IMG/VR virus record: IMGVR_UViG_3300042890_003939
Coordinates: 1 to 23,751 of that record
Origin: a virus
Reading direction: 5' to 3' (one strand)
Length of the DNA stretch: 23,751 nt
The notes beneath the pieces were generated by a model that did not search any database, was not told the origin of the DNA, and saw only the letters and a program-made list of their open reading frames with translations. Shown piece by piece: positions 2,038 to 22,629 of the stretch. Made by a program: the position numbers and the translations under genes. Within the stretch, counting starts at the first letter, position 1. Each line of letters opens with the position of its first letter.

Positions 2038-2291
2038 TGAAGACTTATCTCTATTGGGAATACACGGAGCCTTATCCAGAGCACCCAACAGAGATGACTG
2101 AGCGAGATATCCTCGACTCATATTGGAATTACTTTAAGAAGCAAATGGATAAAAAATTTGGACCCAATCATCATTTAACCACTGAAGAGGTCTGTATTGA
2201 TGATTGGGTCGTAATTAACTGGGCTTGGGAGAAGCCTTTATCTTCTTCTTCTGAAGAGAACGAGCATGCCGAGGCCGCCAAGAAGAGCTGA
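2037..2291 (+). CDS. conserved small phage protein with DDWVV motif
   Basis: An 84-residue acidic protein (MKTYLYWEYTEPYPEHP...). The central ILDSYWNYFKKQMDKKFG helix and the CIDDWVVINWAW segment resemble small phage proteins of unknown function that carry a DDWV-[VI]-x-WAW pattern. It is coupled to the preceding gene by TGATG. Its last 54 bases overlap the 3' end of the convergent PEP-CTERM-like gene, so the Ser/Glu tail here and the Arg4 tail there share the same bases. Confidence 0.72.
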   Translation: MKTYLYWEYTEPYPEHPTEMTERDILDSYWNYFKKQMDKKFGPNHHLTTEEVCIDDWVVINWAWEKPLSSSSEENEHAEAAKKS

Positions 2292-2909
2292 GCTGCTTTC
2301 TGGAATAGATGGACTGCCAATCGCTATACCTTCAACAGGTGCAGCTTGGTTGATGTAGAATGCATCCATACCAAAGCAGAATGCTCCGCTACCAGAGATA
2401 CGGAATAGGTCGATGTTATCAAACTCACTGCTTAATACAATGTCACTTGTTGATGACATACCCCAATCCTCGCCCGGAAGAAGGTACGATCCAGTCACAG
2501 CAGAGCCATTACGAAAGCCTTGAACAAAGATTTGTTCATTGTCAGAGTGAGGTCCACCTCCTTGAGATGTATTGGAAGTAATGGTAAAGTAATTAAGATC
2601 AAAGGTAGCACCTTCAATATTCTTAACGTCAATTGATTGCAATCCACCAAACCAGTGACCGTGGATAACATCATTGCCTGTTCCATAGTAATTCCCAACT
2701 GCTTGAGCATTGTAATTACCATTGCTGACATAATCTAATTCATAACCATTCTCAGTATATGAGACGATGTTGTAGTATGTTTGATTTGCAGCGGTAGTGT
2801 AAAGATTACCGTTAGCATCCGTAGCAGTACCTCCTGTGAATGAGATGACTGTTGCATATGCACTGCTTGCTAGCAATGCTCCAATTAGTAGTGTTAGTAT
2901 ACGTTTCAT
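2238..2909 (-). CDS. secreted PEP-CTERM-like surface protein
   Basis: A 223-residue protein with a signal peptide (MKRILTLLIGALLASSAYA, cleavage about residue 19), a beta-rich middle (repeated T/S/N/G strands, FDLNYFTITSN, EQIFVQGFRNGSAV, FDNIDLFRISG) and a C-terminal tripartite tail: PES near residue 203, a Leu/Gly hydrophobic helix (LLGGLGMLVLF) and RRRR at the very end. This is the architecture of PEP-CTERM exosortase substrates, with PES in place of PEP. In bacteria such tails direct membrane anchoring and processing by exosortase; here the substrate would depend on host machinery. It is the last gene of a minus-strand trio and overlaps the upstream stop by ATGA. Possible roles are host-surface display or blocking of superinfection; this is inference. 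Confidence 0.85.
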   Translation of the reverse strand: MKRILTLLIGALLASSAYATVISFTGGTATDANGNLYTTAANQTYYNIVSYTENGYELDYVSNGNYNAQAVGNYYGTGNDVIHGHWFGGLQSIDVKNIEGATFDLNYFTITSNTSQGGGPHSDNEQIFVQGFRNGSAVTGSYLLPGEDWGMSSTSDIVLSSEFDNIDLFRISGSGAFCFGMDAFYINQAAPVEGIAIGSPSIPESSSALLGGLGMLVLFRRRR

Positions 2910-3082
2910 TTCTTTAGAAATTTGGTTTTAAGTGAGACAATCTTCTTTGTAGCGATGCCTAATAGCTTACCTAGCTTGCTATCCTTAGGTATAAAGACAG
3001 CTAGTGTTGATAGGATACCAAGTACAGCGATACAAAGATCAATTACGTTTTGTTTTATAGGTTCTAGTGCGTCTATTAACAT
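2906..3082 (-). CDS. 58-aa single-span membrane peptide, holin-like
   Basis: The sequence runs MLIDALEPIKQNVIDLCIAV... with one hydrophobic span (about residues 13-31), then IPKDSKLGKLLGIATKK and a strongly basic C-terminus. Topology (short N-terminus, one span, Pro, basic tail) matches the 65-residue peptide at 15247-15444 beside the endolysin: both have a hydrophobic helix, I/T-P-x-[PK]-K, then L-x-K. A small holin or membrane-associated accessory is plausible but unproven. It starts 7 nt after the upstream stop and its TGA overlaps the ATG of the PEP-CTERM-like gene. Confidence 0.65.
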   Translation of the reverse strand: MLIDALEPIKQNVIDLCIAVLGILSTLAVFIPKDSKLGKLLGIATKKIVSLKTKFLKK

Positions 3083-3089
3083 AAGTTTG

Positions 3090-3872
3090 TTATGGGTTAG
3101 TGTTGGTTGTGGCAGGAGGGTTAATTACAGGAGGCACAAATGACTCAATGCTAGGAGGAGTTTGTAAGAGTGCGTCGTGCTTATCGGTAATCTTCTTTCC
3201 TTCTTCTAAGAGAGATTTTACTTTAGGTGATGATGGATCAACAGCAGTAGTTTCAGCAATTGATTCTTCTACCTTTTGCTCTGCTGCTTTCTCTACCTTA
3301 GCGATAGCCTTTTCAACTGTAGCTTTTGTTGCATCTACAGCAGCTTTAGCAGTAGCGTTCTGATAAGAAGTCGTAGAGTTATGAATTACATCCGATACTG
3401 AGAATGATACAGAGCCTGTTAGTAAGTCTCTAAGATATCCCAGGATGGGTAACTCTTTCTCAACAACCTTATAAACAATAGCGCCTTGAACGTACACAGC
3501 TTGTGATTGTGCGTAGACAGCAGTACTCATAGCTATCATACCAGCCATGCCAATTACTTTCATTTGATCTTGTATGAATTGCTTGTATGATTTCTTACCT
3601 TGCTTAGCTTGTGGAGGAAGCTTTGTATCTGTTGCAGGAGCAGCTTCGACCTCCTTACGCTTAGGCTTACTCTTCTCCTCTTCTACCTCTTCTACCTCTT
3701 CTTCAGGTTCTTCTTCCTCCTTTTCTCCGTTTTCCGCTCTACACTTCTGCAACTCCTGATACAATACCCATGCAGCTTCCTTAGCCTGCGCTTCAGATTC
3801 AGGGAGAGGACGACAATATTCTTCCACATACTCCTTTGCTTCTTCTACATCTAAATGATTACCCTTTTTCAT
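3090..3872 (-). CDS. acidic membrane protein with coiled-coil tail
   Basis: A 260-residue protein of modular composition: a helical N-terminus (1-45), a Glu-rich run (about 50-67), a Lys/Pro-rich linker with PKRKE, one hydrophobic segment at about 108-130 (VIGMAGMIAMSTAVYA), a second weaker one near 138-152, then an Ala/Lys/Glu heptad-like helix (about 172-207, AKAAVDATKATVEKAIAKVE), and a Pro/Thr-rich end. This implies a cytoplasmic acidic head, a membrane anchor and an extended coiled coil. No family recognised. It heads the minus-strand trio; CATAAATA at 3888-3895 is a candidate late promoter 15 nt upstream. Confidence 0.75.
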   Translation of the reverse strand: MKKGNHLDVEEAKEYVEEYCRPLPESEAQAKEAAWVLYQELQKCRAENGEKEEEEPEEEVEEVEEEKSKPKRKEVEAAPATDTKLPPQAKQGKKSYKQFIQDQMKVIGMAGMIAMSTAVYAQSQAVYVQGAIVYKVVEKELPILGYLRDLLTGSVSFSVSDVIHNSTTSYQNATAKAAVDATKATVEKAIAKVEKAAEQKVEESIAETTAVDPSSPKVKSLLEEGKKITDKHDALLQTPPSIESFVPPVINPPATTNTNP

Positions 3873-3887
3873 AAACTTTTATACTAT

Positions 3888-3895
3888 TATTTATG
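3888..3895 (-). promoter_or_regulatory. candidate late-type promoter for the minus trio
   Basis: CATAAATA on the minus strand, 15 nt before the start of the 260-residue gene. This gives a leader of roughly 10 nt; a TATAAAAG at 3876-3883 is a second, closer candidate. Confidence 0.4.
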
Positions 3896-3922
3896 GATTT
3901 CTGGCTAACCCTTGATAAATAA

Positions 3923-3939
3923 GGGACTGCGCTTAAATT
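3923..3939 (+). promoter_or_regulatory. degenerate class A promoter
   Basis: GGGACT 3923-3928, 5 nt, TAAATT 3934-3939, then 7 nt to ATG 3947. Spacing matches class A but both boxes deviate. Confidence 0.35.
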
Positions 3940-3946
3940 ATGGTAT

Positions 3947-4039
3947 ATGTATATCGACCATACTGATAGATTTGCACTCCCTCTCATAGTTCTAGCCACG
4001 ATCATCGCTGGTTTTATTATCTATGCTCTCAGCCGTTAA
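3947..4039 (+). CDS. 30-aa membrane peptide
   Basis: A 30-residue ORF, MYIDHTDRFALPLIVLATIIAGF..., with one hydrophobic helix (residues 10-27) and a C-terminal SR. It sits alone between the divergent minus-strand trio and the first MRYK-family gene, and lies 7 nt after a degenerate class A promoter. One-span micropeptides are common in phages, but with such a short ORF the call rests on the helix and the promoter spacing. Confidence 0.45.
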   Translation: MYIDHTDRFALPLIVLATIIAGFIIYALSR

Positions 4040-4042
4040 ACG

Positions 4043-4050
4043 AATAAATA
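4043..4050 (+). promoter_or_regulatory. late-type promoter (AATAAATA)
   Basis: AATAAATA 7 nt before ATG 4058; drives the first MRYK-family cluster. Confidence 0.6.
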
Positions 4051-4057
4051 CAATAAG

Positions 4058-4447
4058 ATGAGGTACAAGATAGCGATTTTTTATGACTCAGGAGGCGGTA
4101 TCGATATGCTTCAATACACGGAGTCTGTATATGAGTCTGATGGTGTAGATATCTTTATACGAGGAAGAATGAATGCACTCTATAAAGGGCTTTACACACA
4201 CCCTTCCAGTAAGATAATAATCGGTAATGCGCCATATAAAGAGTTCTTTATGGCTATACCTGAGACGCATCCTCTATTTAATTTCGATAGAATGGATGAT
4301 ATTAATCACCCTACGCAATATACTCATACGGAAGAGATAAATGATTGTAAGGTGAGGTATCATAGAGAGTTTAAGAAGCTCTTTCTCACAATACACAAAG
4401 AGTATCGTGACATTAAACAACACGGAACCGGACAATTTAAATTATGA
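4058..4447 (+). CDS. MRYK/HPLFNFD family protein 1
   Basis: A 129-residue member of an unrecognised paralogous family with 11 copies in this window. It starts MRYK and carries the central signature PETHPLFNFD at residues 68-77, preceded by hydrophobic FFMAI. N-terminal residues 1-60 look beta-rich; the C-terminal 40 residues are helical and basic (REFKKLFLTIHKEYRDIKQ). No signal peptide, membrane span or enzyme motif. It is the first gene after a late promoter and its TGA overlaps the next ATG (ATGA), so members 1 and 2 form a coupled operon. Function unknown; late expression is inferred. Confidence 0.8.
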   Translation: MRYKIAIFYDSGGGIDMLQYTESVYESDGVDIFIRGRMNALYKGLYTHPSSKIIIGNAPYKEFFMAIPETHPLFNFDRMDDINHPTQYTHTEEINDCKVRYHREFKKLFLTIHKEYRDIKQHGTGQFKL

Positions 4448-4809
4448 GATATAGTTACATAGAGATATTTGTAGAGCATAGCGCAGCAGCAGCTGACCTT
4501 CGTTACGAAGCAGATGACTACTACGGTGATGGTTCGTGGGATCCTCATTGGTATGATGCTGAAGAAGGTCTTAGCTTTCACTTTGATGAGGCAGATGATA
4601 ATGAAATAAGATTAGGTCATATTAGAATACCTGAAGCGCATCCTCTGTTTAACTTTGGTATAATAGAGAAAACGCAATTCGCAAGAGTTATGCCTTTTCC
4701 TCGAGAACTTTATTTAGAGGCAGATGAATACGCTCGTAATATATTAACAAGAGCTGGTATACCGATGACAGTGTATGAAGCAATGAAGTACGATGACGAG
4801 AACCAATAA
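4444..4809 (+). CDS. MRYK/HPLFNFD family protein 2
   Basis: A 121-residue acidic member starting MRYSYIEIF with PEAHPLFNFG at residues 63-72 after a hydrophobic-basic lead (HIRI). The N-terminal half is Asp/Glu/Tyr-rich (YEADDYYGDGSWDPHWYDAEE), much more acidic than member 1, although start and core motif are retained. The C-terminal third is helical. It is translationally coupled to member 1 (ATGA). Outside the two anchors, little identity to its siblings is visible. Confidence 0.8.
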   Translation: MRYSYIEIFVEHSAAAADLRYEADDYYGDGSWDPHWYDAEEGLSFHFDEADDNEIRLGHIRIPEAHPLFNFGIIEKTQFARVMPFPRELYLEADEYARNILTRAGIPMTVYEAMKYDDENQ

Positions 4810-4810
4810 T

Positions 4811-5173
4811 ATGAGATACATCAAAGGAGAATTTACTACAGGTGTAGGTAGACAGCTAGCTCTACAGAATGATGGTCAGTTATGGCGCTTAAAGGAAGGT
4901 ACTGGTAAGTTTACTACAGGAAGCGGTAAATGGGATCTTGATCAAGATTTTAATAGTGTAGTAGATGGGATATACTTCGCTAAAGCAGAAAAGCAATTTA
5001 GTCAAACCAAGATATTTTTTATGGTACCAGAGACTCATTTTCTTTTTAATGAGCATATGCTTTATAGTAAGATGTTTTATATGTTGAATGAAAGTCGAAG
5101 AGAAGCTATCGAAAGATTTGCTACTCTTGCTGTAATCGATATCATCAAAACAAAACTAGGAATTAAGATATGA
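4811..5173 (+). CDS. MRYK/HPLFNFD family protein 3
   Basis: A 120-residue member starting MRYIKGEFTTG, with PETHFLFN at residues 73-80 (Phe for Pro, and FD replaced by EH). A VVDGIYFA string about 20 residues before the core matches the xDG[IM][FY] sub-motif in members 5, 6 and 8. ATG 4811 follows the previous stop by one base; the longer frame opening at 4793 would add MTRTNN before the MRY start shared by every sibling, so it is rejected. The C-terminus is helical and basic. Confidence 0.78.
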   Translation: MRYIKGEFTTGVGRQLALQNDGQLWRLKEGTGKFTTGSGKWDLDQDFNSVVDGIYFAKAEKQFSQTKIFFMVPETHFLFNEHMLYSKMFYMLNESRREAIERFATLAVIDIIKTKLGIKI

Positions 5174-5517
5174 GATACGCTGCATACTACCTTAACATGA
5201 GCTCGAAAACAGCAACGGGGTTTGATACCGTATTTCTTTCTGTTGATGAAGCTAGAAAGTATTTTAAAGTAAAGCGAGGTAGAGATGCTAAACAAATTAC
5301 TACAACAGATGAAAGTATTCAGATGTTCTACTACAATGGTGTGATTTTGTGTATTGTAAGAGAAGACAATCCACTATATGCATGGGGAATACTTAACGAT
5401 GGGCTTTTTGCGATAGACAAACCAGGTGTTATAGACGGCCTCCATAAGCAGGTATTCAAGATGTTTGACGTGTATCAGTTATGGATGAGAGAGCATCTAG
5501 CTAAGCAGAAGAGATAA
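5170..5517 (+). CDS. divergent MRYK-family protein 4
   Basis: A 115-residue protein starting MRYAAYYLNM. The core signature is degraded to REDNPLYAW at residues 64-72 after hydrophobic VILCIV, at the same position as in its siblings. The C-terminus is helical (VIDGLHKQVFKMFDVYQLWMREHL). It is coupled to member 3 by ATGA. Position, start and motif placement support a rapidly diverging family member; sequence alone leaves some doubt. Confidence 0.7.
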   Translation: MRYAAYYLNMSSKTATGFDTVFLSVDEARKYFKVKRGRDAKQITTTDESIQMFYYNGVILCIVREDNPLYAWGILNDGLFAIDKPGVIDGLHKQVFKMFDVYQLWMREHLAKQKR

Positions 5518-5534
5518 GGGAACTATCTTATAAT
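5518..5534 (+). promoter_or_regulatory. class A promoter
   Basis: GGGAAC 5518-5523, TATCT, TATAAT 5529-5534, then GAGGT and ATG 5540. Confidence 0.7.
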
Positions 5535-5539
5535 GAGGT

Positions 5540-5680
5540 ATGAAGAAAGCTAAGGTTCATCGGTTCTGGATCACCTCGACATCATCTGTTGGAACATCTG
5601 ACTACAAGCTGTTTGTATCAAAAGCTGATTACGAGCGCGCAATGAAGCGTGTCAAAGAGCTCGAAGCACTCATCAAGTGA
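5540..5680 (+). CDS. 46-aa basic protein, unknown
   Basis: A 46-residue ORF, MKKAKVHRFWITSTSSVGTSDY..., with a basic N-terminus, a short beta-type middle and a C-terminal helix (YERAMKRVKELEALIK) resembling a short coiled coil. Start is fixed by the class A promoter 5 nt upstream. Its TGA overlaps the ATG of MRYK-family protein 5 (TGATG), so a class A transcript would also cover that gene. No family recognised. Confidence 0.65.
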   Translation: MKKAKVHRFWITSTSSVGTSDYKLFVSKADYERAMKRVKELEALIK

Positions 5681-6030
5681 TGCGATATAAGGCTATTCAA
5701 TGGCACGATAATAGTTCGCAGGGTACGGCAGATCTATATAAAGGTATAGCCCCGTTATTGTATTACCGTAAGGGTGATGAGTTCATACCTCACGATAATT
5801 GGAGAGGTTGGGGTGAACCTCTATTGATACAAAGCGAGACGGATGGAATGTTTCACTGTAAATCGAAACTACTCTTTGTGTATGTTGTCATATCAGAAGA
5901 GCATCCACTGTTTAACTTCCCTGGGGTGGTGATGGGTCTCTATCATATGATCTATACAAAGAGATACGATAACATCGTACGATACTGCAATAATGAGTTC
6001 AAAGCCTTATACGGTAAGGTAATTAAATAA
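5680..6030 (+). CDS. MRYK/HPLFNFD family protein 5
   Basis: A 116-residue member starting MRYKAIQWHDN, with SEEHPLFNF at residues 72-80 after the hydrophobic strand LLFVYVVI, and the sub-motif ETDGMFHC about 20 residues earlier. It is closest by eye to member 6, which has EVDGMFYC and VVIHESHPLFN in the same order. A GTG at 5677 would add one Met, but ATG 5680 preserves the family start and forms TGATG coupling with the 46-residue gene. The C-terminus is helical and basic. Confidence 0.8.
   Translation: MRYKAIQWHDNSSQGTADLYKGIAPLLYYRKGDEFIPHDNWRGWGEPLLIQSETDGMFHCKSKLLFVYVVISEEHPLFNFPGVVMGLYHMIYTKRYDNIVRYCNNEFKALYGKVIK
6022..6029 (+). promoter_or_regulatory. late-type promoter (ATTAAATA)
   Basis: ATTAAATA 6 nt before ATG 6036; overlaps the stop codon of MRYK-family protein 5. 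Confidence 0.45.
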
Positions 6031-6035
6031 GAGTA

Positions 6036-6398
6036 ATGAGATACAAAGCGATGATATGGCAACCAAATGGTAACTTCGATAGAATGCCGTCTACTCTATA
6101 TCATATGGTTGATGATTCCTTTATTCCTATTCTAAGAGGTGAGTTAATGACTCAAAACCTAGCTTCATACGCTCTACGTATTAAAGGTGAGGTAGATGGT
6201 ATGTTCTATTGTGTAGCTGCATCAGGAGCTATGAACTATAGCTATGTCGTTATACACGAGTCACATCCTCTATTCAATCAAGATCGTGTAACAACACTCT
6301 CATTCAATCTAGCTACTCCAAAAGCATACAATGAGGTGTTATACTTTCTTTTAACACAAGAAAATAAGATCTACGATAAGGTATTAGGTTCACGATAA
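6036..6398 (+). CDS. MRYK/HPLFNFD family protein 6
   Basis: A 120-residue member starting MRYKAMIWQPNG, with HESHPLFNQD at residues 74-83 and EVDGMFYC upstream at about 52-59. The similarity to member 5 over both motifs and the start (MRYKA-x-x-W) suggests a recent tandem duplication. The C-terminal segment is helical (KAYNEVLYFLLTQENKIYDKV). It has its own candidate late promoter. No known domain. Confidence 0.8.
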   Translation: MRYKAMIWQPNGNFDRMPSTLYHMVDDSFIPILRGELMTQNLASYALRIKGEVDGMFYCVAASGAMNYSYVVIHESHPLFNQDRVTTLSFNLATPKAYNEVLYFLLTQENKIYDKVLGSR

Positions 6399-6415
6399 GG
6401 GAACTACCTTATCAT
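6399..6415 (+). promoter_or_regulatory. class A promoter (TATCAT -10)
   Basis: GGGAAC 6399-6404, TACCT, TATCAT 6410-6415, then 6 nt to ATG 6422. The GGGAAC box starts one base after the TAA of MRYK-family protein 6 begins, overlapping none of its coding residues. Confidence 0.6.
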
Positions 6416-6421
6416 GGGGGT

Positions 6422-6601
6422 ATGCGATATTCTACCAAGCCAGTCATTAAAGCCGACCCTGTATCTGACCTAAAGCATTTGGATGTCTCAGCAGTAGTCT
6501 TCAAGCCAGAAGCACGCAACAATATCTATCTGCGTACACCAGCATACCGTAAGCGCAAATCGATCTCATTAAAAGGAATGACAGATAGTGAATGCTATTA
6601 A
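6422..6601 (+). CDS. 59-aa basic protein, unknown
   Basis: A 59-residue ORF, MRYSTKPVIKADPVSDLKHL..., ending in a basic stretch (YRKRKSISLKG). It begins MRY by chance or by descent, but lacks the HPLFN core, is half the family length and is driven by a class A promoter, so it is not placed in the MRYK family. Start fixed by the promoter. No family recognised. Confidence 0.62.
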   Translation: MRYSTKPVIKADPVSDLKHLDVSAVVFKPEARNNIYLRTPAYRKRKSISLKGMTDSECY

Positions 6602-6618
6602 GGGAACTCTCGTATAAT
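6602..6618 (+). promoter_or_regulatory. class A promoter
   Basis: GGGAAC 6602-6607, TCTCG, TATAAT 6613-6618, then AAGGT and ATG 6624. It begins directly at the last base of the upstream stop. Confidence 0.7.
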
Positions 6619-6623
6619 AAGGT

Positions 6624-6782
6624 ATGACCAACGAAGAGCTATTAGAAAGAGCTGAAGCAGCAGAGGATGGCTTGAGAGAGATCGCTCTGTTCCTGAGCTG
6701 CGGAGGTTATAACGATGATGGACCAATCGATGTCGATAAGTTCGTCAAGAAGATCAAAGAGGCTATCGTAGGAGCACCTTGA
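6624..6782 (+). CDS. 52-aa acidic protein, unknown
   Basis: A 52-residue ORF, MTNEELLERAEAAEDGLREI..., with an amphipathic acidic helix (1-23), a CGGYNDDGPIDVD turn and a second helix (KFVKKIKEAIVG). It has the size and helix-turn-helix-like layout of small phage regulators, but no specific family is recognised. Start is fixed by the class A promoter, 5 nt before the ATG; its stop overlaps the next late promoter. Confidence 0.65.
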   Translation: MTNEELLERAEAAEDGLREIALFLSCGGYNDDGPIDVDKFVKKIKEAIVGAP

Positions 6783-6789
6783 ATAAATA
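6782..6789 (+). promoter_or_regulatory. late-type promoter (AATAAATA)
   Basis: AATAAATA 6 nt before ATG 6796 of MRYK-family protein 7. Confidence 0.55.
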
Positions 6790-6795
6790 GTCTCG

Positions 6796-7140
6796 ATGAG
6801 ATACAGCATTGTAACGTTAGATATAACGGATAGTACACAGAGTGATATAACAGTTACACCAGTCATGTGGCCGTCAGCAGTGGGTGATGGAGAGGATATA
6901 AAGCTGAGTCAAGGTGATCTTGACAACTACCCACCACCAGTAGTGGACAAGGATGGAGTAAGATTGTATTCTATGGTAACATTTCGTGGGTCATATAACC
7001 TGTTATTCATACCAGAGACACATCAATACTATAATGGAGGGCTAGTACTGCATAACTTTAAACAAGATGACTATGAAGGTAGTCGGAAAGTAGCGGAGAT
7101 GATGAAGAAAATGTACAAAAAAATACGAAAAAGCGTATAA
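6796..7140 (+). CDS. divergent MRYK-family protein 7
   Basis: A 114-residue protein starting MRYSIVTLDITDS. The core is IPETHQYYNGG (about 72-82), keeping PETH and the Asn but losing PLF and FD. A DKDGVRLYS string precedes it, echoing the xDG motif of other members. The C-terminus is helical and very basic (MMKKMYKKIRKSV). It is a single late-promoter gene with no coupled partner. Start, spacing and PETH support membership. Confidence 0.72.
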   Translation: MRYSIVTLDITDSTQSDITVTPVMWPSAVGDGEDIKLSQGDLDNYPPPVVDKDGVRLYSMVTFRGSYNLLFIPETHQYYNGGLVLHNFKQDDYEGSRKVAEMMKKMYKKIRKSV

Positions 7141-11009: not shown

Positions 11010-11348
11010 ATGAGGTATAAGGCGTATACATATGACGCGGGTAGGCAATTGAATCCATTAGAGGATTATCCTTTCTTTTTAGAGAACGGTGTATTTGTTT
11101 CTCATTATAAAGGCGCGCGAACATTTGAACTTACAAAGATGCTAAAACGTGCTGATGGTATATATCAAGCGACACACTTTGGTATCTTCTTTATACCAGA
11201 GCCTCATCCATTCTTTAACATAGATGTTATAACCAACGCTGTGGATGGTTACGGTCAACCTCCTATAACCGATAGAAAGCGTATACACACTACATGGGTT
11301 AAGTTTACTCAGTTGTGTTACAACTATATTAGAAAGGTAGCTAAATGA
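11010..11348 (+). CDS. MRYK/HPLFNFD family protein 8
   Basis: A 112-residue member starting MRYKAYTYDAG, with PEPHPFFNID at residues 63-72 after the hydrophobic strand FGIFFI, and RADGIYQAT about 15 residues earlier (the xDG[IM][FY] sub-motif). The C-terminal helix is basic (YNYIRKVAK). It is coupled to member 9 by ATGA. It lies 3.9 kb from the first cluster but keeps the same start, motif order and late-promoter control. Confidence 0.8.
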   Translation: MRYKAYTYDAGRQLNPLEDYPFFLENGVFVSHYKGARTFELTKMLKRADGIYQATHFGIFFIPEPHPFFNIDVITNAVDGYGQPPITDRKRIHTTWVKFTQLCYNYIRKVAK

Positions 11349-11716
11349 GATACAAAGTAATATATTTTTACCTTCCGCTTTTCTATGACATGATAGGTTC
11401 TCGCATCCATCACTTTGATATGAGTGAGGGATCATCTCTGCTTACAGAACATCCCGGTAATATATATTCTGACGATGCGAGAGACTACTTTTTAATAGAG
11501 GGTAGTAAAGATATCTATAGAGTTTCTACACCGGAGAATCCACACTCTAATTGGTTTGTTAAGATCGTAGAAGAGTCTGATCCTCTGTTTAACTTTGATA
11601 TGGCTTATCTATTAGGTTATGAGGACGATGTTAATATGAATATTAATCTGGAGACATACGGACCTAGTCTTGTACCGCAGTTTGTAGACGACAAAGTACT
11701 CCGAATGCATCACTGA
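11345..11716 (+). CDS. MRYK/HPLFNFD family protein 9
   Basis: A 123-residue member starting MRYKVIYFYLPLF, with EESDPLFNFD at residues 76-85 (Asp replaces the core His) after FVKIV. KDIYRV about 20 residues earlier may be a remnant of the DG sub-motif. The N-terminal third is longer than in most siblings. Coupled to member 8; a GGCCC-TGC-GGGCC hairpin follows its stop. Confidence 0.78.
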   Translation: MRYKVIYFYLPLFYDMIGSRIHHFDMSEGSSLLTEHPGNIYSDDARDYFLIEGSKDIYRVSTPENPHSNWFVKIVEESDPLFNFDMAYLLGYEDDVNMNINLETYGPSLVPQFVDDKVLRMHH

Positions 11717-11747
11717 GCGGCAGACAAAAAGACCACGAGCGGCATGA

Positions 11748-11765
11748 GGCCCTGCGGGCCATTTG
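11748..11765 (+). terminator. possible weak terminator hairpin
   Basis: GGCCC-TGC-GGGCC stem (11748-11760) followed by ATTTG. The stem is short and the T-tract poor; it separates the member 8-9 and 10-11 operons. Confidence 0.4.
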
Positions 11766-11773
11766 TATAAATA
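11766..11773 (+). promoter_or_regulatory. late promoter (TATAAATA)
   Basis: A perfect T4-type TATAAATA 7 nt before ATG 11781. Confidence 0.7.
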
Positions 11774-11780
11774 TAATCAG

Positions 11781-12200
11781 ATGAGGTATAAGAAATTCCA
11801 GATATCGGGCGCTATCGAATTAGACGAGATCGATACCCTTTGGATAACCGATATTGATATCGTTGATGGTAGTATCCTCGAGCATGATAGAGTGCCAGAA
11901 GAAGCTCTTGAGGGTCCAGGTCATCATAAGGGGTTATATGAGTTTCTTAAGGTAGATAAGTATCTCTATAAGCGTGTTGATGCTGGTAGTGATATAGATG
12001 AAGATTACGGTAACGCTACGAGATACTATTATGTCTTACCGGAGACACACCCTGGATTTAATTTCGATGTAATATACAAAGCGAGTGAAGATGATATCTA
12101 TATGGCTTTCTTTAATGGTCCTGAAGAACGTGAAGACGATGCTCGTACAGTCTTACATCGCTACCTTCCTGAATTTGTAAATAGAAACACATACGAATGA
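11781..12200 (+). CDS. MRYK/HPLFNFD family protein 10
   Basis: A 139-residue member, the longest, starting MRYKKFQISGAI, with PETHPGFNFD at residues 87-96 after RYYYVL. The N-terminal part is acidic (DEIDTLWITDIDIVDGS). The frame opens at 11763, but that would start inside the TATAAATA promoter; ATG 11781 matches all siblings and the late-promoter spacing. ATGA coupling joins it to member 11. Confidence 0.8.
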   Translation: MRYKKFQISGAIELDEIDTLWITDIDIVDGSILEHDRVPEEALEGPGHHKGLYEFLKVDKYLYKRVDAGSDIDEDYGNATRYYYVLPETHPGFNFDVIYKASEDDIYMAFFNGPEEREDDARTVLHRYLPEFVNRNTYE

Positions 12201-12514
12201 GATACAAAAGCTTTACAATAGACGCGCAAGTTGCAGATTATAATGAATATGATGATCTACCATCATTGATGTACGTTGAGATACACAATGTTGTTATAGC
12301 AGGTTCAACACAGGCGCTTCCTAAATGGGCATCGGATAAACAAGTAGTTATGAAAGAAGATCATCCTGCTTTTAACTTTGATGTATGGGCTAACGAGATA
12401 GAATTTATCGATGAAGATAGACGCGATTTTATGGGTACTGTGGAATTAGATGAGTTTATGATTAAACACTTTCCACAAGTAATGAGATACTATAGAGATA
12501 ACGAGTTTTTATAA
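12197..12514 (+). CDS. MRYK/HPLFNFD family protein 11
   Basis: A 105-residue member, the shortest, starting MRYKSFTIDAQV, with KEDHPAFNFD at residues 53-62 after QVVM. It is acidic, with a C-terminal helix-rich segment (VELDEFMIKHFPQVMRYYRDNEF). It is the last family gene in the window and is coupled to member 10. No known domain. Confidence 0.8.
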   Translation: MRYKSFTIDAQVADYNEYDDLPSLMYVEIHNVVIAGSTQALPKWASDKQVVMKEDHPAFNFDVWANEIEFIDEDRRDFMGTVELDEFMIKHFPQVMRYYRDNEFL

Positions 12515-15246: not shown

Positions 15247-15444
15247 TTACTTTTGCTTAGCTTTACCAACATTAAGAGCTAAGAAATCGACAACGCGGTA
15301 TACCTTGGAAAGGGATGTACCCTTCTTTGGAGTTGGTGTGATAGCTGCAACTGAAGAAGCGAGCGTGACAGCTGCTGTTAAGATGCTATACCAAGGGGTT
15401 GACTTTACTAATTGTAATACTAATTCTGTTGTGAGATTATTCAT
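15247..15444 (-). CDS. small holin-like membrane protein
   Basis: A 65-residue protein, MNNLTTELVLQLVKSTPWYS..., with one hydrophobic span (about 18-36, YSILTAAVTLASSVAAI), then TPTPKKGTSLSKVYRVVDFLALNVGKAK. The helix followed by P-x-PK and VDFLALNxGKAK matches my memory of small proteins annotated as holins next to phage endolysins. Divergent from the endolysin gene, with a late-type promoter of its own. A lysis role is likely but unproven. Confidence 0.65.
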   Translation of the reverse strand: MNNLTTELVLQLVKSTPWYSILTAAVTLASSVAAITPTPKKGTSLSKVYRVVDFLALNVGKAKQK

Positions 15445-18298: not shown

Positions 18299-19282
18299 AT
18301 GGGACATAGTATTTTTGAAGAGCAAATTAGTCGTAAGCCAAACCTGTATCCGTGGACTGAACAGTTCATTGAAGCAATGCATAATGGTTTTTGGACGGAT
18401 AAAGAATTCAACTTTAAATCTGATGTACAGCAATTTAAAGTTGAACTAACTGATCAAGAGCGAGAAATTATTGTACGTACTTTATCCGCTATTGGTCAAA
18501 TTGAGGTAGCGGTTAAGACTTTTTGGGCCAAGTTAGGTGAGAATCTACCTCACCCTGCTTTATATGATCTTGGTATTGTTATGTCTAATACAGAAGTTAT
18601 TCATAACAACGCATACGAACGTTTGCTCAAGGTTCTCGAACTCGAAGACATTTTTGAAGAGAACCTTAAGCTTGAGTGGATCCAAGGGAGAGTCAAGTAT
18701 CTCCGTAAGTATACACATAGATTCTACAAGGACTCGAAGAAGCAATATCTATACGCTTTAACTTTGTTTACTTTATTCGTTGAGAATGTTTCTCTGTTTT
18801 CTCAGTTCTATGTTATCAATCATTTTGCTCGTTTCAAGAACGTTCTAAAGGATACTGATCAGCAAGTTAAGTATACTCGTAATGAAGAGAATATTCACGC
18901 TCTTGTAGGTATTCAAATTATCAATACTATTCGTGAAGAGCATCCTGAACTCTTTGATGAAGAGCTGACAGAGCGTATTGTAGCTGCTGCACATGAAGCA
19001 TTTAAATCGGAAAGTAAAATTGTCGATTGGATGGTTAATGGTATTAATGAACCCGGACTATCTGCTCCTATTCTTAAAGAGTTTATCAAGAACCGTATTA
19101 ATGAATCCCTTTCACAAATTGGCTTACCTAAGCCTTTTGAAGTAGATTCTACTATTTTAGAGTCTACAATGTGGTTCACGGAAGAATTATTGGGCAATAA
19201 TATGACCGATTTTTTCAGTTCTAGGCCCGTAGAGTACTCTAAGAAGTCTCAATGCTTTGACGAAGATGCATTATTTGGCTAA
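18299..19282 (+). CDS. nrdB: class I ribonucleotide reductase small subunit
   Basis: A 327-residue beta subunit that carries the metal/radical cofactor for NrdA. Visible ligands: E69 (IGQIEV; Asp in E. coli), E99 and H102 with Y106 four residues later (TEVIHNNAY, the E-x2-H-x3-Y pattern of tyrosyl-radical enzymes), E162 (LFVENV), and E197-x2-H200 (RNEENIH). The C-terminus (SQCFDEDALFG) fits an acidic tail that docks on the large subunit. The gene order nrdB then nrdA, split by a homing endonuclease, is reversed from the usual bacterial order. Confidence 0.96.
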   Translation: MGHSIFEEQISRKPNLYPWTEQFIEAMHNGFWTDKEFNFKSDVQQFKVELTDQEREIIVRTLSAIGQIEVAVKTFWAKLGENLPHPALYDLGIVMSNTEVIHNNAYERLLKVLELEDIFEENLKLEWIQGRVKYLRKYTHRFYKDSKKQYLYALTLFTLFVENVSLFSQFYVINHFARFKNVLKDTDQQVKYTRNEENIHALVGIQIINTIREEHPELFDEELTERIVAAAHEAFKSESKIVDWMVNGINEPGLSAPILKEFIKNRINESLSQIGLPKPFEVDSTILESTMWFTEELLGNNMTDFFSSRPVEYSKKSQCFDEDALFG

Positions 19283-19313
19283 TTGCGTTATACTCTATAG
19301 GTCGGGTAGTATA

Positions 19314-19321
19314 TATAAATA
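19314..19321 (+). promoter_or_regulatory. TATAAATA next to endonuclease start
   Basis: A perfect TATAAATA but only 1 nt before ATG 19323; if it acts as a late promoter the transcript would start inside the ORF. Confidence 0.35.
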
Positions 19322-19322
19322 T

Positions 19323-20042
19323 ATGAGAAAACCGTATTTTTATATTATTAAGCATATACCTAGTCAAAAATATTATGCAGGATGCAAGATTAATTCGAGA
19401 TCTAATTCTGTAGATTTAATGACTGAACAAGGATATCAAACTTCGTCACAAACTATTAAAGAATTAATACGTAAGGATACCTTACATATGTTTCAAATAG
19501 TTAAAATAAAACATTTTGAAACATCATACGAAGCTTTAACCTACGAAACAAGATTTTTAACAAAAGTAAATGCTGCAGATAATGTTATGTTCTATAATAA
19601 ACATAATGGTGGTAAGAACTTTGTTAATAAGGGTGGATATAAATTATCTGAGTCTACGAAGCAAAAGATGAAAAAACCTAAATCTAAAGAGACAGTTGAA
19701 AAGCAAAATCAAGAAAAACGAACAAGGAGCAAGGAAGTTTACAAAAAAATGGTTGAGACTCGTAAAAGCAGATACGATTCTTGGCATACGGAAGAACAGT
19801 TAGAGAAAATAAAACAGCATAATGCTACATGGTGGAATGAAGAAAATAGAAACAAGCATTCTGAGATAATGAAAGAGTATCATAAAAATAATCCTATAAG
19901 TGAGATAACTAGGCAAAAGCATAAAGAAAAAAGTAAGGGATCTAACAATGGTATGTTTGGTAAAAAACATAGTGAAACAACAAGAGAAAAGTTAAAGCTT
20001 GCCTGGAAAAAAAGAAAAGAAAATAAAGATACTCTTGAATAA
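19323..20042 (+). CDS. GIY-YIG homing endonuclease
   Basis: A 239-residue free-standing endonuclease of the T4 Seg/F-TflI type. GIY-YIG domain at residues 4-100: YFYIIKH for the first strand, KYYAGCK for the second, catalytic Glu at E75 (EALTYETRFL), and YNKHNGG. The second half is very Lys-rich (118-200) with NUMOD3-type DNA-binding motif GSNNGMFGKKHSETTREKL near residue 210. Such enzymes cut the same site in endonuclease-free relatives, spreading themselves. It sits between nrdB and nrdA; its codons look AT-richer than those of its neighbours. Confidence 0.9.
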   Translation: MRKPYFYIIKHIPSQKYYAGCKINSRSNSVDLMTEQGYQTSSQTIKELIRKDTLHMFQIVKIKHFETSYEALTYETRFLTKVNAADNVMFYNKHNGGKNFVNKGGYKLSESTKQKMKKPKSKETVEKQNQEKRTRSKEVYKKMVETRKSRYDSWHTEEQLEKIKQHNATWWNEENRNKHSEIMKEYHKNNPISEITRQKHKEKSKGSNNGMFGKKHSETTREKLKLAWKKRKENKDTLE

Positions 20043-21739: not shown

Positions 21740-22381
21740 ATGAGATGGAAATATAATCTAAACGAAGGGGTAGGTGGAGATGATATTGAAAGTAAGCCAC
21801 AACAGATTTTTATTAATGCTATGGGGCCAGGAGGAGCCGCTGGTAGTAATATAAGAGTTGTTGAAAATACTATTTTCTTTTATGCAGATGTAACGGAGCA
21901 ATCAGCTCTTGATCTTAACGCGGTACTATATGAACTAGACGCTAAGCTTAAAAATACATATAACTTTTTAGGACCAGATTTTGTACCACATATTAAATTA
22001 CGAATTAATTCATACGGTGGCTCTGTATTTGCAGGCATGGCTATTCTTGATACTATTAGAAACCTTAAATCAGAAGTTCACACTTATATTGATGGTGCTG
22101 CTGCTTCAGCAGCTACGATTATATCAGTCGCTGGGAAAAAGAGATTTATAGGTAAGAATTCTTTAATGCTTATTCACCAACTATCATCCGGTAGCTATGG
22201 TAAGTTTTCAGAAATGGAAGATGATATGGAGAACAATCGACGTATTATGAAGATGATTAAAGATATTTATAAACAATATACAAAGGTACCAATGAAGCAA
22301 ATCGATGAGATTCTTAAACACGATCTCTGGTTTGACTCAGCTAAATGTCTTGAGTTTGGTTTGGTAGATCAAGTTCTATGA
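21740..22381 (+). CDS. ClpP-like serine protease
   Basis: A 213-residue ClpP-fold protease (peptidase family S14). Catalytic triad by position: S123 in DGAAASAAT (the G-x-A-x-S elbow), H146 in LMLIHQL, D195 in LKHDLW; the oxyanion GG lies in INSYGGSVFAG (90-99) and the family end FGLVD is present. The start YNLNEGVGG matches the [LI]-x-E/G prohead-cleavage pattern. In many phages ClpP-like enzymes are head-maturation proteases; an alternative is a Clp-type role with a host unfoldase. Coupled by ATGA to the next gene. Confidence 0.9.
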   Translation: MRWKYNLNEGVGGDDIESKPQQIFINAMGPGGAAGSNIRVVENTIFFYADVTEQSALDLNAVLYELDAKLKNTYNFLGPDFVPHIKLRINSYGGSVFAGMAILDTIRNLKSEVHTYIDGAAASAATIISVAGKKRFIGKNSLMLIHQLSSGSYGKFSEMEDDMENNRRIMKMIKDIYKQYTKVPMKQIDEILKHDLWFDSAKCLEFGLVDQVL

Positions 22382-22629
22382 TATTTGGTATTCTTTACGC
22401 AGTATGCTTTTTCATCTGCTACTTACCACAAATTTATAAAACCGTAAGATACAAGAGTGTAGAGGGGTTAAGCTTCTCTATGTTCTTACTCTCTCTTCTC
22501 GGTTATATCTTTTGTGGTTTATATATGATATACGGTGTAGGTTTTAATGTGGGTATGGCTATTAACAGCATATTAGGTACAACATGCTGTTTAATAATGA
22601 TGTTCTATATTATAATATATAGGAAGTAA
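22378..22629 (+). CDS. SemiSWEET / PQ-loop membrane protein
   Basis: An 83-residue protein with three predicted spans (about 2-16, 33-52, 57-80) and the PQ-loop signature YLPQIYKTVRYKSVEGLSF at residues 15-33. This is the three-helix unit of SemiSWEET sugar transporters, which dimerise to form a pore for sugars down a gradient; PQ-loop proteins also move other small solutes. ATGA-coupled to the ClpP-like gene. Length is normal for bacterial SemiSWEETs. Substrate unknown. Confidence 0.82.
   Translation: MIFGILYAVCFFICYLPQIYKTVRYKSVEGLSFSMFLLSLLGYIFCGLYMIYGVGFNVGMAINSILGTTCCLIMMFYIIIYRK

Follow-up and report, generated by a model that had tools for sequence, protein, structure and literature searches.

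A phage operon encoding a PEP-CTERM-like protein with exchangeable ectodomains: a candidate late surface-display module

Several phage genes are known to alter the surface of the infected cell, such as T5 Llp and P22 Gtr, which do so via lipoprotein export and glycosyl transfer, respectively. Spanins act on the envelope at the end of infection: one partner sits in the inner and the other in the outer membrane, and together they disrupt the latter at lysis. In bacteria, the criteria for recognizing substrates of the PEP-CTERM/exosortase (EpsH) system were defined in PMC1569441. Genes of this type have been recorded on viral sequences, as the available part of PMC11003980 lists TIGR03118-family proteins with an exosortase tail among virus HGTs from Yellowstone mats (n = 13). 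A reported link between PEP-CTERM proteins and phage in Microcystis (PMC12642866) concerns host gene expression only and was set aside. Here we describe a PEP-CTERM-like gene, C, and its operon in a virus record of 23,751 bases, the whole of which is referred to as the window.

A PEP-CTERM-like gene in the window

Gene C begins with an ATG, and the features of its product and of the adjoining genes are collected in Table 1. The protein has an N-terminal signal peptide and, as judged from sequence and hydropathy and from the beta body in its model, no other transmembrane segment; at its C terminus, SALLGGLGMLVLFRRRR consists of a hydrophobic stretch followed by a basic cluster. Both properties are those of PEP-CTERM proteins. 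Cleavage of the signal peptide is likely to occur after AYA. The tail, IPESSSALLGGLGMLVLFRRRR, is intact and comprises an IPES motif, a hydrophobic stretch and RRRR. In an alignment of 15 C relatives, P203-E204 and 46 further columns were invariant, and NDVIHGHW and CFGMD were conserved stretches of the ectodomain.

Table 1. Features of the A-B-C operon in the window
Feature	Position	Strand	Evidence
Gene C, PEP-CTERM-like cargo, 223 aa	2238..2909	-	ORF, NF038120 match, viral relatives, AlphaFold model
C signal peptide, residues 1-19 (MKRILTLLIGALLASSAYA)	2853..2909	-	Sequence; first model helix at residues 2-14
C ectodomain, residues about 20-190, beta sandwich	2340..2852	-	Invariant columns and fold comparison
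C sorting tail PESSSALLGGLGMLVLFRRRR, residues 203-223	2241..2303	-	Invariant P203/E204; terminal helix of model at 207-222
Gene B, 58 aa; a single transmembrane helix is predicted and the C-terminus is rich in lysine	2906..3082	-	Present at this position in every operon examined
Gene A, 260 aa; helices in the N-terminal part, an acidic linker, a hydrophobic helix rich in glycine and a flexible tail	3090..3872	-	Sequence, AlphaFold
CATAAATA box, T4-late-promoter-like, 15 bases upstream of A	3888..3895	-	TAAATA-class motif

Profile searches placed C near, and outside, the described families. The NCBIfam PEP-CTERM family NF038120 matched window C at E=1.1e-8 and 35.3 bits, below its cut-off of 80, with an alignment that was full length (C residues 17-223 onto positions 2-214 of the 215 in the model). 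By this comparison C is a distant relative of NF038120 and not a member. Searches with TIGR02595 and PF07589 gave no match to window C, which is no formal member of these tail models owing to PES in place of PEP. Many C relatives do have PEP, and two operon siblings exceeded the TIGR02595 cut-off of 16 (the C proteins of L141, at 21.0 bits, and of L143, at 17.5 bits). Among 15 viral homologues, 14 were matched by NF038120 and 4 by TIGR02595 (E up to 1). The MYXO-CTERM model scored 15.7 bits against a cut-off of 20, and the tail of window C is without the cysteine that is invariant in MYXO-CTERM tails according to the available text of PMC11980579. Judged by its architecture, window C is PEP-CTERM-like.

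The AlphaFold model of C is a beta sandwich (pLDDT 77, pTM 0.74). A PDB sequence search with C gave no match. When the model was compared with known folds using VIA-align, the best match was 9hmu (Z 10.7), of the DUF4465/BtuJ-type B12-binding proteins, followed by carbohydrate-binding modules (CBM-like chains) at Z 9-10. As matches near Z 10 are to a common beta sandwich, they leave sugar binding by C unproven and the fold does not indicate a function.

A conserved operon with exchanged bodies on phage contigs

Gene C is the last of three tightly packed genes in the order A-B-C, of which we collected 66 distinct versions, nearly all from viral contigs. In the window, B overlaps the start of C by 4 bases, and this overlap was found in 55 of the 58 versions matched by the B motif; B was also present in the remaining 8 versions, which the first B pattern had missed. 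B sequences can be aligned over their whole length and belong to no Pfam or PHROGs family. Searches of the same two collections with A gave no convincing match. The glycine-rich hydrophobic segment of A is conserved (of the type IGTAGVMSIGSGAYFQ), and the AlphaFold model of A, which is of low confidence (pLDDT 52; N-terminal helices, 72-82), is mostly helix and disorder. Both A and B are predicted to be inner-membrane proteins. A role of B as a holin was considered and is unsupported, a separate small membrane gene adjoining the window endolysin. That gene (15247-15444, minus strand) encodes a 65 aa protein that is a possible holin, with homologues in the operon-bearing L009, L011, L052 and L054.

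The ectodomains of C belong to four families that have no mutual similarity by BLAST or profile. The second to fourth families came in via searches with B and A, and these position-3 proteins comprise 29 distinct sequences of about 276 aa, 5 sequences and 1 sequence, respectively. Despite this exchange of bodies, a signal peptide and a PE/hydrophobic/basic tail were found in 65 of 65 complete C proteins (from 66 distinct homologous positions), compared with only 10 of 740 other ORFs of the fetched sequences, which served as controls; 8 of those 10 were PEP-CTERM-type relatives themselves. As the tail is constant while the bodies change, it would be the sorting signal, and not the body, that the operon keeps, and we take this constancy to be the strongest evidence that exosortase sorting is what matters.

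Relatives of the C body were found on 30-43 viral contigs (62-64% identity for the nearest and about 40% for the rest), two scans yielding 43 contigs with identities of 37-62%, and the body is also encoded at 19 loci of the genome collection. Cellular homologues occur in Pelomonas, Gallionellaceae, Planctomycetota and others, and no A or B was found beside the cellular copies examined. In a tree of 43 sequences, the viral type-1 bodies formed one group (support 99/98) beside bacterial PEP-CTERM-type proteins, its neighbors being a sequence from a Verrucomicrobia MAG and two further MAG-derived ones. The tree is consistent with a single capture that was followed by spread among phages.

Carriers of the operon include T4-like, T7-like and lambda-tailed phage types. 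In L003, whose contig is 122 kb long, the operon is accompanied by a gp23 capsid gene of the T4 type (E=2e-90), and in L023 and L036 by a lambda-type J tail fibre; in L006 the cassette directly precedes the gene of a T7-type head-tail adaptor (E=3e-184). Neighbors of the operon in the window include genes for a head maturation protease, ribonucleotide reductase (RNR), ThyX, lysozyme/endolysin and a metallophosphoesterase, so that the phage setting of C is sound. When 50,697 annotated phage records were searched by tblastn, no true match emerged for either of C types 1 and 2, for A or for the additional gene D described below. The existence of cellular C homologues could suggest that C is an ordinary cellular PEP-CTERM gene on a misassembled or non-viral contig. 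However, that explanation is refuted by the phage genes of the window, by the recurrence of the operon beside capsid, tail fibre or adaptor genes, and by the separate grouping of the viral copies together with the absence of A and B beside the cellular ones examined, and we give it almost no credence.

These results bear on the first-pass annotation, which had described C as a phage-encoded PEP-CTERM-like substrate with its signal peptide, beta-rich body and PES/hydrophobic/RRRR tail all intact. The intact parts were confirmed by the sequence, the model and all of the complete siblings, and the assignment is supported by the similarity to NF038120, the phage neighbors and the viral relatives. 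The outcome of the PEP-CTERM profile search that it had proposed was ambiguous for window C, given the score below the NF038120 cut-off, but positive for the L141 and L143 siblings. The place of C in a conserved operon of three genes, whose cargo domains are exchangeable, goes beyond what had been proposed.

Two of the 19 loci of the genome collection, on contigs assigned to a Flavobacteriaceae MAG (L036 and L037, ERR2094171_bin.138), carry A-B-C together with phage tail genes. Flavobacteriaceae were rejected as the host based on this phage gene content and on the lack of an exosortase match in that genome, and the two are likely phage contigs that were binned into the MAG. A C-body relative in a Bifidobacterium breve MAG (L039), also a genome without exosortase, likely lies on a mis-binned contig.

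Additional genes were noted in the window and in operon-bearing contigs. About ten paralogous genes of 105-145 aa, which start with MRYK/MRYS and have an internal PE(T/S/E)HPLFNFD motif, occupy 4058-7140 and 11010-12514 of the window (plus strand), and MRY genes resembling this array were also present in L002 and L003. An ORF between nrdB and nrdA (19257-20042, plus strand) appeared by eye to be like homing endonucleases of the GIY-YIG type. A small PQ-loop-like membrane protein of 83 aa is encoded in the window (22378-22629, plus strand) and, a few kb downstream from the operon, in L004 and L018 as well. Near the operon in L003, a protein of 1047 aa (3586-6729, minus strand) combines GT25, exostosin GT47 and nucleotide-diphospho-sugar transferase domains.

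Exosortase, gene D and the likely hosts

No exosortase was found in a search of the window and 23 viral records, and exosortase was present in 15 of the 18 cellular genomes tested that carry C-body relatives. These counts support the earlier proposal that the phage would depend on the exosortase of its host. An alternative is that C is a decoy, in which case abundant C would occupy the host exosortase and thereby stop the display of host surface proteins such as receptors or floc proteins, with the ectodomain hardly mattering; a constant tail with changing bodies, and no phage exosortase, would fit such a role. However, the bodies are well conserved within families, and a pure decoy would have no use for their many invariant residues, spread across about 200 aa; A and B would also be left unexplained. 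We consider a decoy improbable.

Some operons, those of several T4-like relatives among them, are extended to A-B-C-D. The D protein is about 385 aa long, with a signal peptide and a barrel-like end. D of L141 scored 22.4 bits (E=5.2e-5) against TIGR03016, a PEP-CTERM-system outer-membrane protein, short of the cut-off of 90.85, which suggests remote similarity only; another phage D matched BBP2_2 at E=0.002, also below cut-off. Homologues of D were found in 28 of 241 Verrucomicrobiota genomes, compared with 0 of 249 from Pseudomonadota and 0 of 199 from Planctomycetota, and the cellular homologues are outer-membrane barrels adjoining Wzz/GNVR polysaccharide genes. Exosortase was present in all 28 of the Verrucomicrobiota genomes with D homologues and in 80 of 115 Verrucomicrobiota genomes in the phylum at large. 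The distribution of D and the exosortase in all 28 genomes point to Verrucomicrobiota as likely hosts of the phages that carry D. In the window, no D adjoins the operon; by kinship, the host of the window phage may perhaps belong to the Verrucomicrobiota too.

B was found in none of 388 Verrucomicrobiota genomes, and so provides no prophage link to a host. This is as expected for a lytic phage. Within the same set, the type-1 C body was found only in UBA3063. The first-pass annotation had held that C would point to the host group and had proposed searching Verrucomicrobiota genomes for relatives and for exosortase. Exosortase proved common in the phylum, the type-1 body was confined to UBA3063 in the set searched, and Verrucomicrobiota are plausible hosts for the T4-like relatives based on the D homologues, the exosortase and the tree.

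A short C-terminal motif is common to phages and their putative hosts. Phage A in the D operons ends in ATPI, and a host protein, X, which is encoded before host D, ends in ATPE. Among 1148 distinct ORFs of at least 100 aa in all fetched loci, only 13 had an xATP(I/E) end, namely 7 phage A proteins and 6 host proteins of D loci, and no significant homology was found between host X and phage A beyond these last residues. This hints that the xATP(I/E) end may dock to D. A of the window, as in most phages, lacks both the xATPI end and the long linker. In the Verrucomicrobiota loci L152, L154, L155, L156 and L157, a secreted protein, X ending in ATPE, an outer-membrane barrel and a Wzz/GNVR co-polymerase were conserved together, and the ATPE end resembles a C-terminal signal of an undescribed kind.

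Timing, proposed function and comparison with known systems

The sequence TAAATA is the core of T4 late promoters. In the window, TAAATA-class boxes were found at most 45 bases upstream of 18 of the 44 likely gene starts, compared with 2.4% at random positions, and the genes preceded by them include those of lysozyme, the head protease and A. The T4-like relatives have TATAAATA or close variants before A, and ATAAATA-type boxes occur in the equivalent place in L002-L004, L141, L144 and L150; in most siphovirus-type operons no TATAAATA box was seen before A. Based on these motifs, and on the head-tail adaptor gene that directly follows the cassette in L006, the operon is probably expressed late. 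An inverted repeat (e.g., TTTCCCTCAAAG...CTTTGAGGGAAA) flanks the TATAAATA box before A in L141, L144, L150 and L004. A different element, GGAACT-N(3-6)-TATAAT, was observed upstream of small plus-strand window genes (at 395, 934, 1782, 5519, 6603 and 8667) and resembles a second class of promoter, an early one, separate from the TAAATA class.

Probable late expression argues against C being a classical early exclusion protein. In strict superinfection exclusion, C made early would coat the cell and block the receptor for related phages, which would suit the predicted surface display and ectodomains whose exchange fits receptor diversity. With a late-type box in the window phage and its T4-like relatives, however, we regard such a role as rather unlikely. 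Late-type boxes would agree better with an egress module, in which A, B and C (with D where present) serve to release progeny as infection ends, by opening the envelope or by loosening the polysaccharide coat in the manner of spanins or a depolymerising coat, with A spanning the periplasm and, in D phages, docking by its C-terminus to the barrel D. The inner-membrane helix of A, its long acidic linker in D phages and the xATP(I/E) end it has in common with host X would all fit, as would the Amidase_2 endolysin and small membrane protein encoded just upstream in L011. The window phage, however, has its own lysozyme and endolysin genes, A of most phages is without the end and linker in question, and C retains a display signal that lysis would not need; we see egress as an unlikely explanation.

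The explanation that we favor, with some confidence, is that the operon is a late, host-exosortase-dependent surface-display module that probably masks or modifies the polysaccharide coat of the host. Transcription would start late from a T4-type late promoter, as suggested by the motif. From its architecture, C would then be a Sec export substrate that stays anchored in the inner membrane through its C-terminal helix, leaving RRRR on the cytoplasmic side. An exosortase would cut at the PE motif and C would pass to the outer surface or polysaccharide layer; the enzyme would be that of the host, since a phage copy is absent and exosortase is common in the likely hosts. Display of C by this route is the part we hold to be very probable. 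The strict linkage of A and B to C suggests that they serve the cargo, for example as delivery or timing factors. Least certain is the final step, in which the carbohydrate-binding-like domain would cover or alter the polysaccharide coat, and further or progeny phage would adsorb less to the dying cell and to its debris. We put forward tentatively that the purpose of the module is to mask the coat against adsorption.

A more elaborate and doubtful possibility is that A-B-C(-D) forms a phage trans-envelope apparatus that usurps the polysaccharide-export and exosortase route of the host. A, anchored in the inner membrane, would engage a polysaccharide-locus barrel (that of the host, or D) via an xATP(E/I) tail copied from the host, and C would be delivered through it as an exchangeable ectodomain. 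If true, this would amount to a novel type of machine by which viruses remodel envelopes. Should the surface-display module be correct, lytic phages of exosortase-bearing bacteria exploit host surface sorting with a fixed two-gene helper pair and a swappable domain, and do so in phages of three tail types. The module would provide a handle on the role of exosortase cargo and on which hosts many uncultured aquatic phages infect, as well as a testable way into exclusion or egress of phages where bacteria are coated with polysaccharide.

Our search of the literature found no description of an A-B-C operon with two partners and swappable cargo, and phage exosortase cargo seems to be unreported apart from the TIGR03118 entry in the list of PMC11003980, as far as the available part of that source goes. 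Those genes are similar to C in being PEP-CTERM-type genes on viral contigs, but they are of a different family and appear there as transferred genes, with no operon, partners or conservation described in that part. Verrucomicrobiota polysaccharide loci have barrels (BBP2_2/OMP_b-brl by Wzz) that are homologues of phage D, with a neighbor ending in ATPE where phage A ends in ATPI, and the loci examined were without A, B and C. Like spanins, A is conceivable as an inner-membrane protein that reaches across the periplasm late; unlike them, the operon has no o-spanin lipoprotein and no sequence match in Pfam or PHROGs, and C has a display tail. T5 Llp and P22 Gtr resemble C in that a phage gene changes the surface, whereas C would use predicted exosortase sorting. 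The closest likeness is to the PEP-CTERM/exosortase (EpsH) substrates, with which C shares a signal peptide, no other transmembrane segment, a Pro-Glu motif, a hydrophobic helix and a basic end, and from which it differs in being phage-encoded, in its fixed operon with A and B, in having PES, and in its occurrence in viral records of which none searched encodes an exosortase. The tail and body of C are thus of a known kind, and the phage operon with swappable cargo is apparently the new part.
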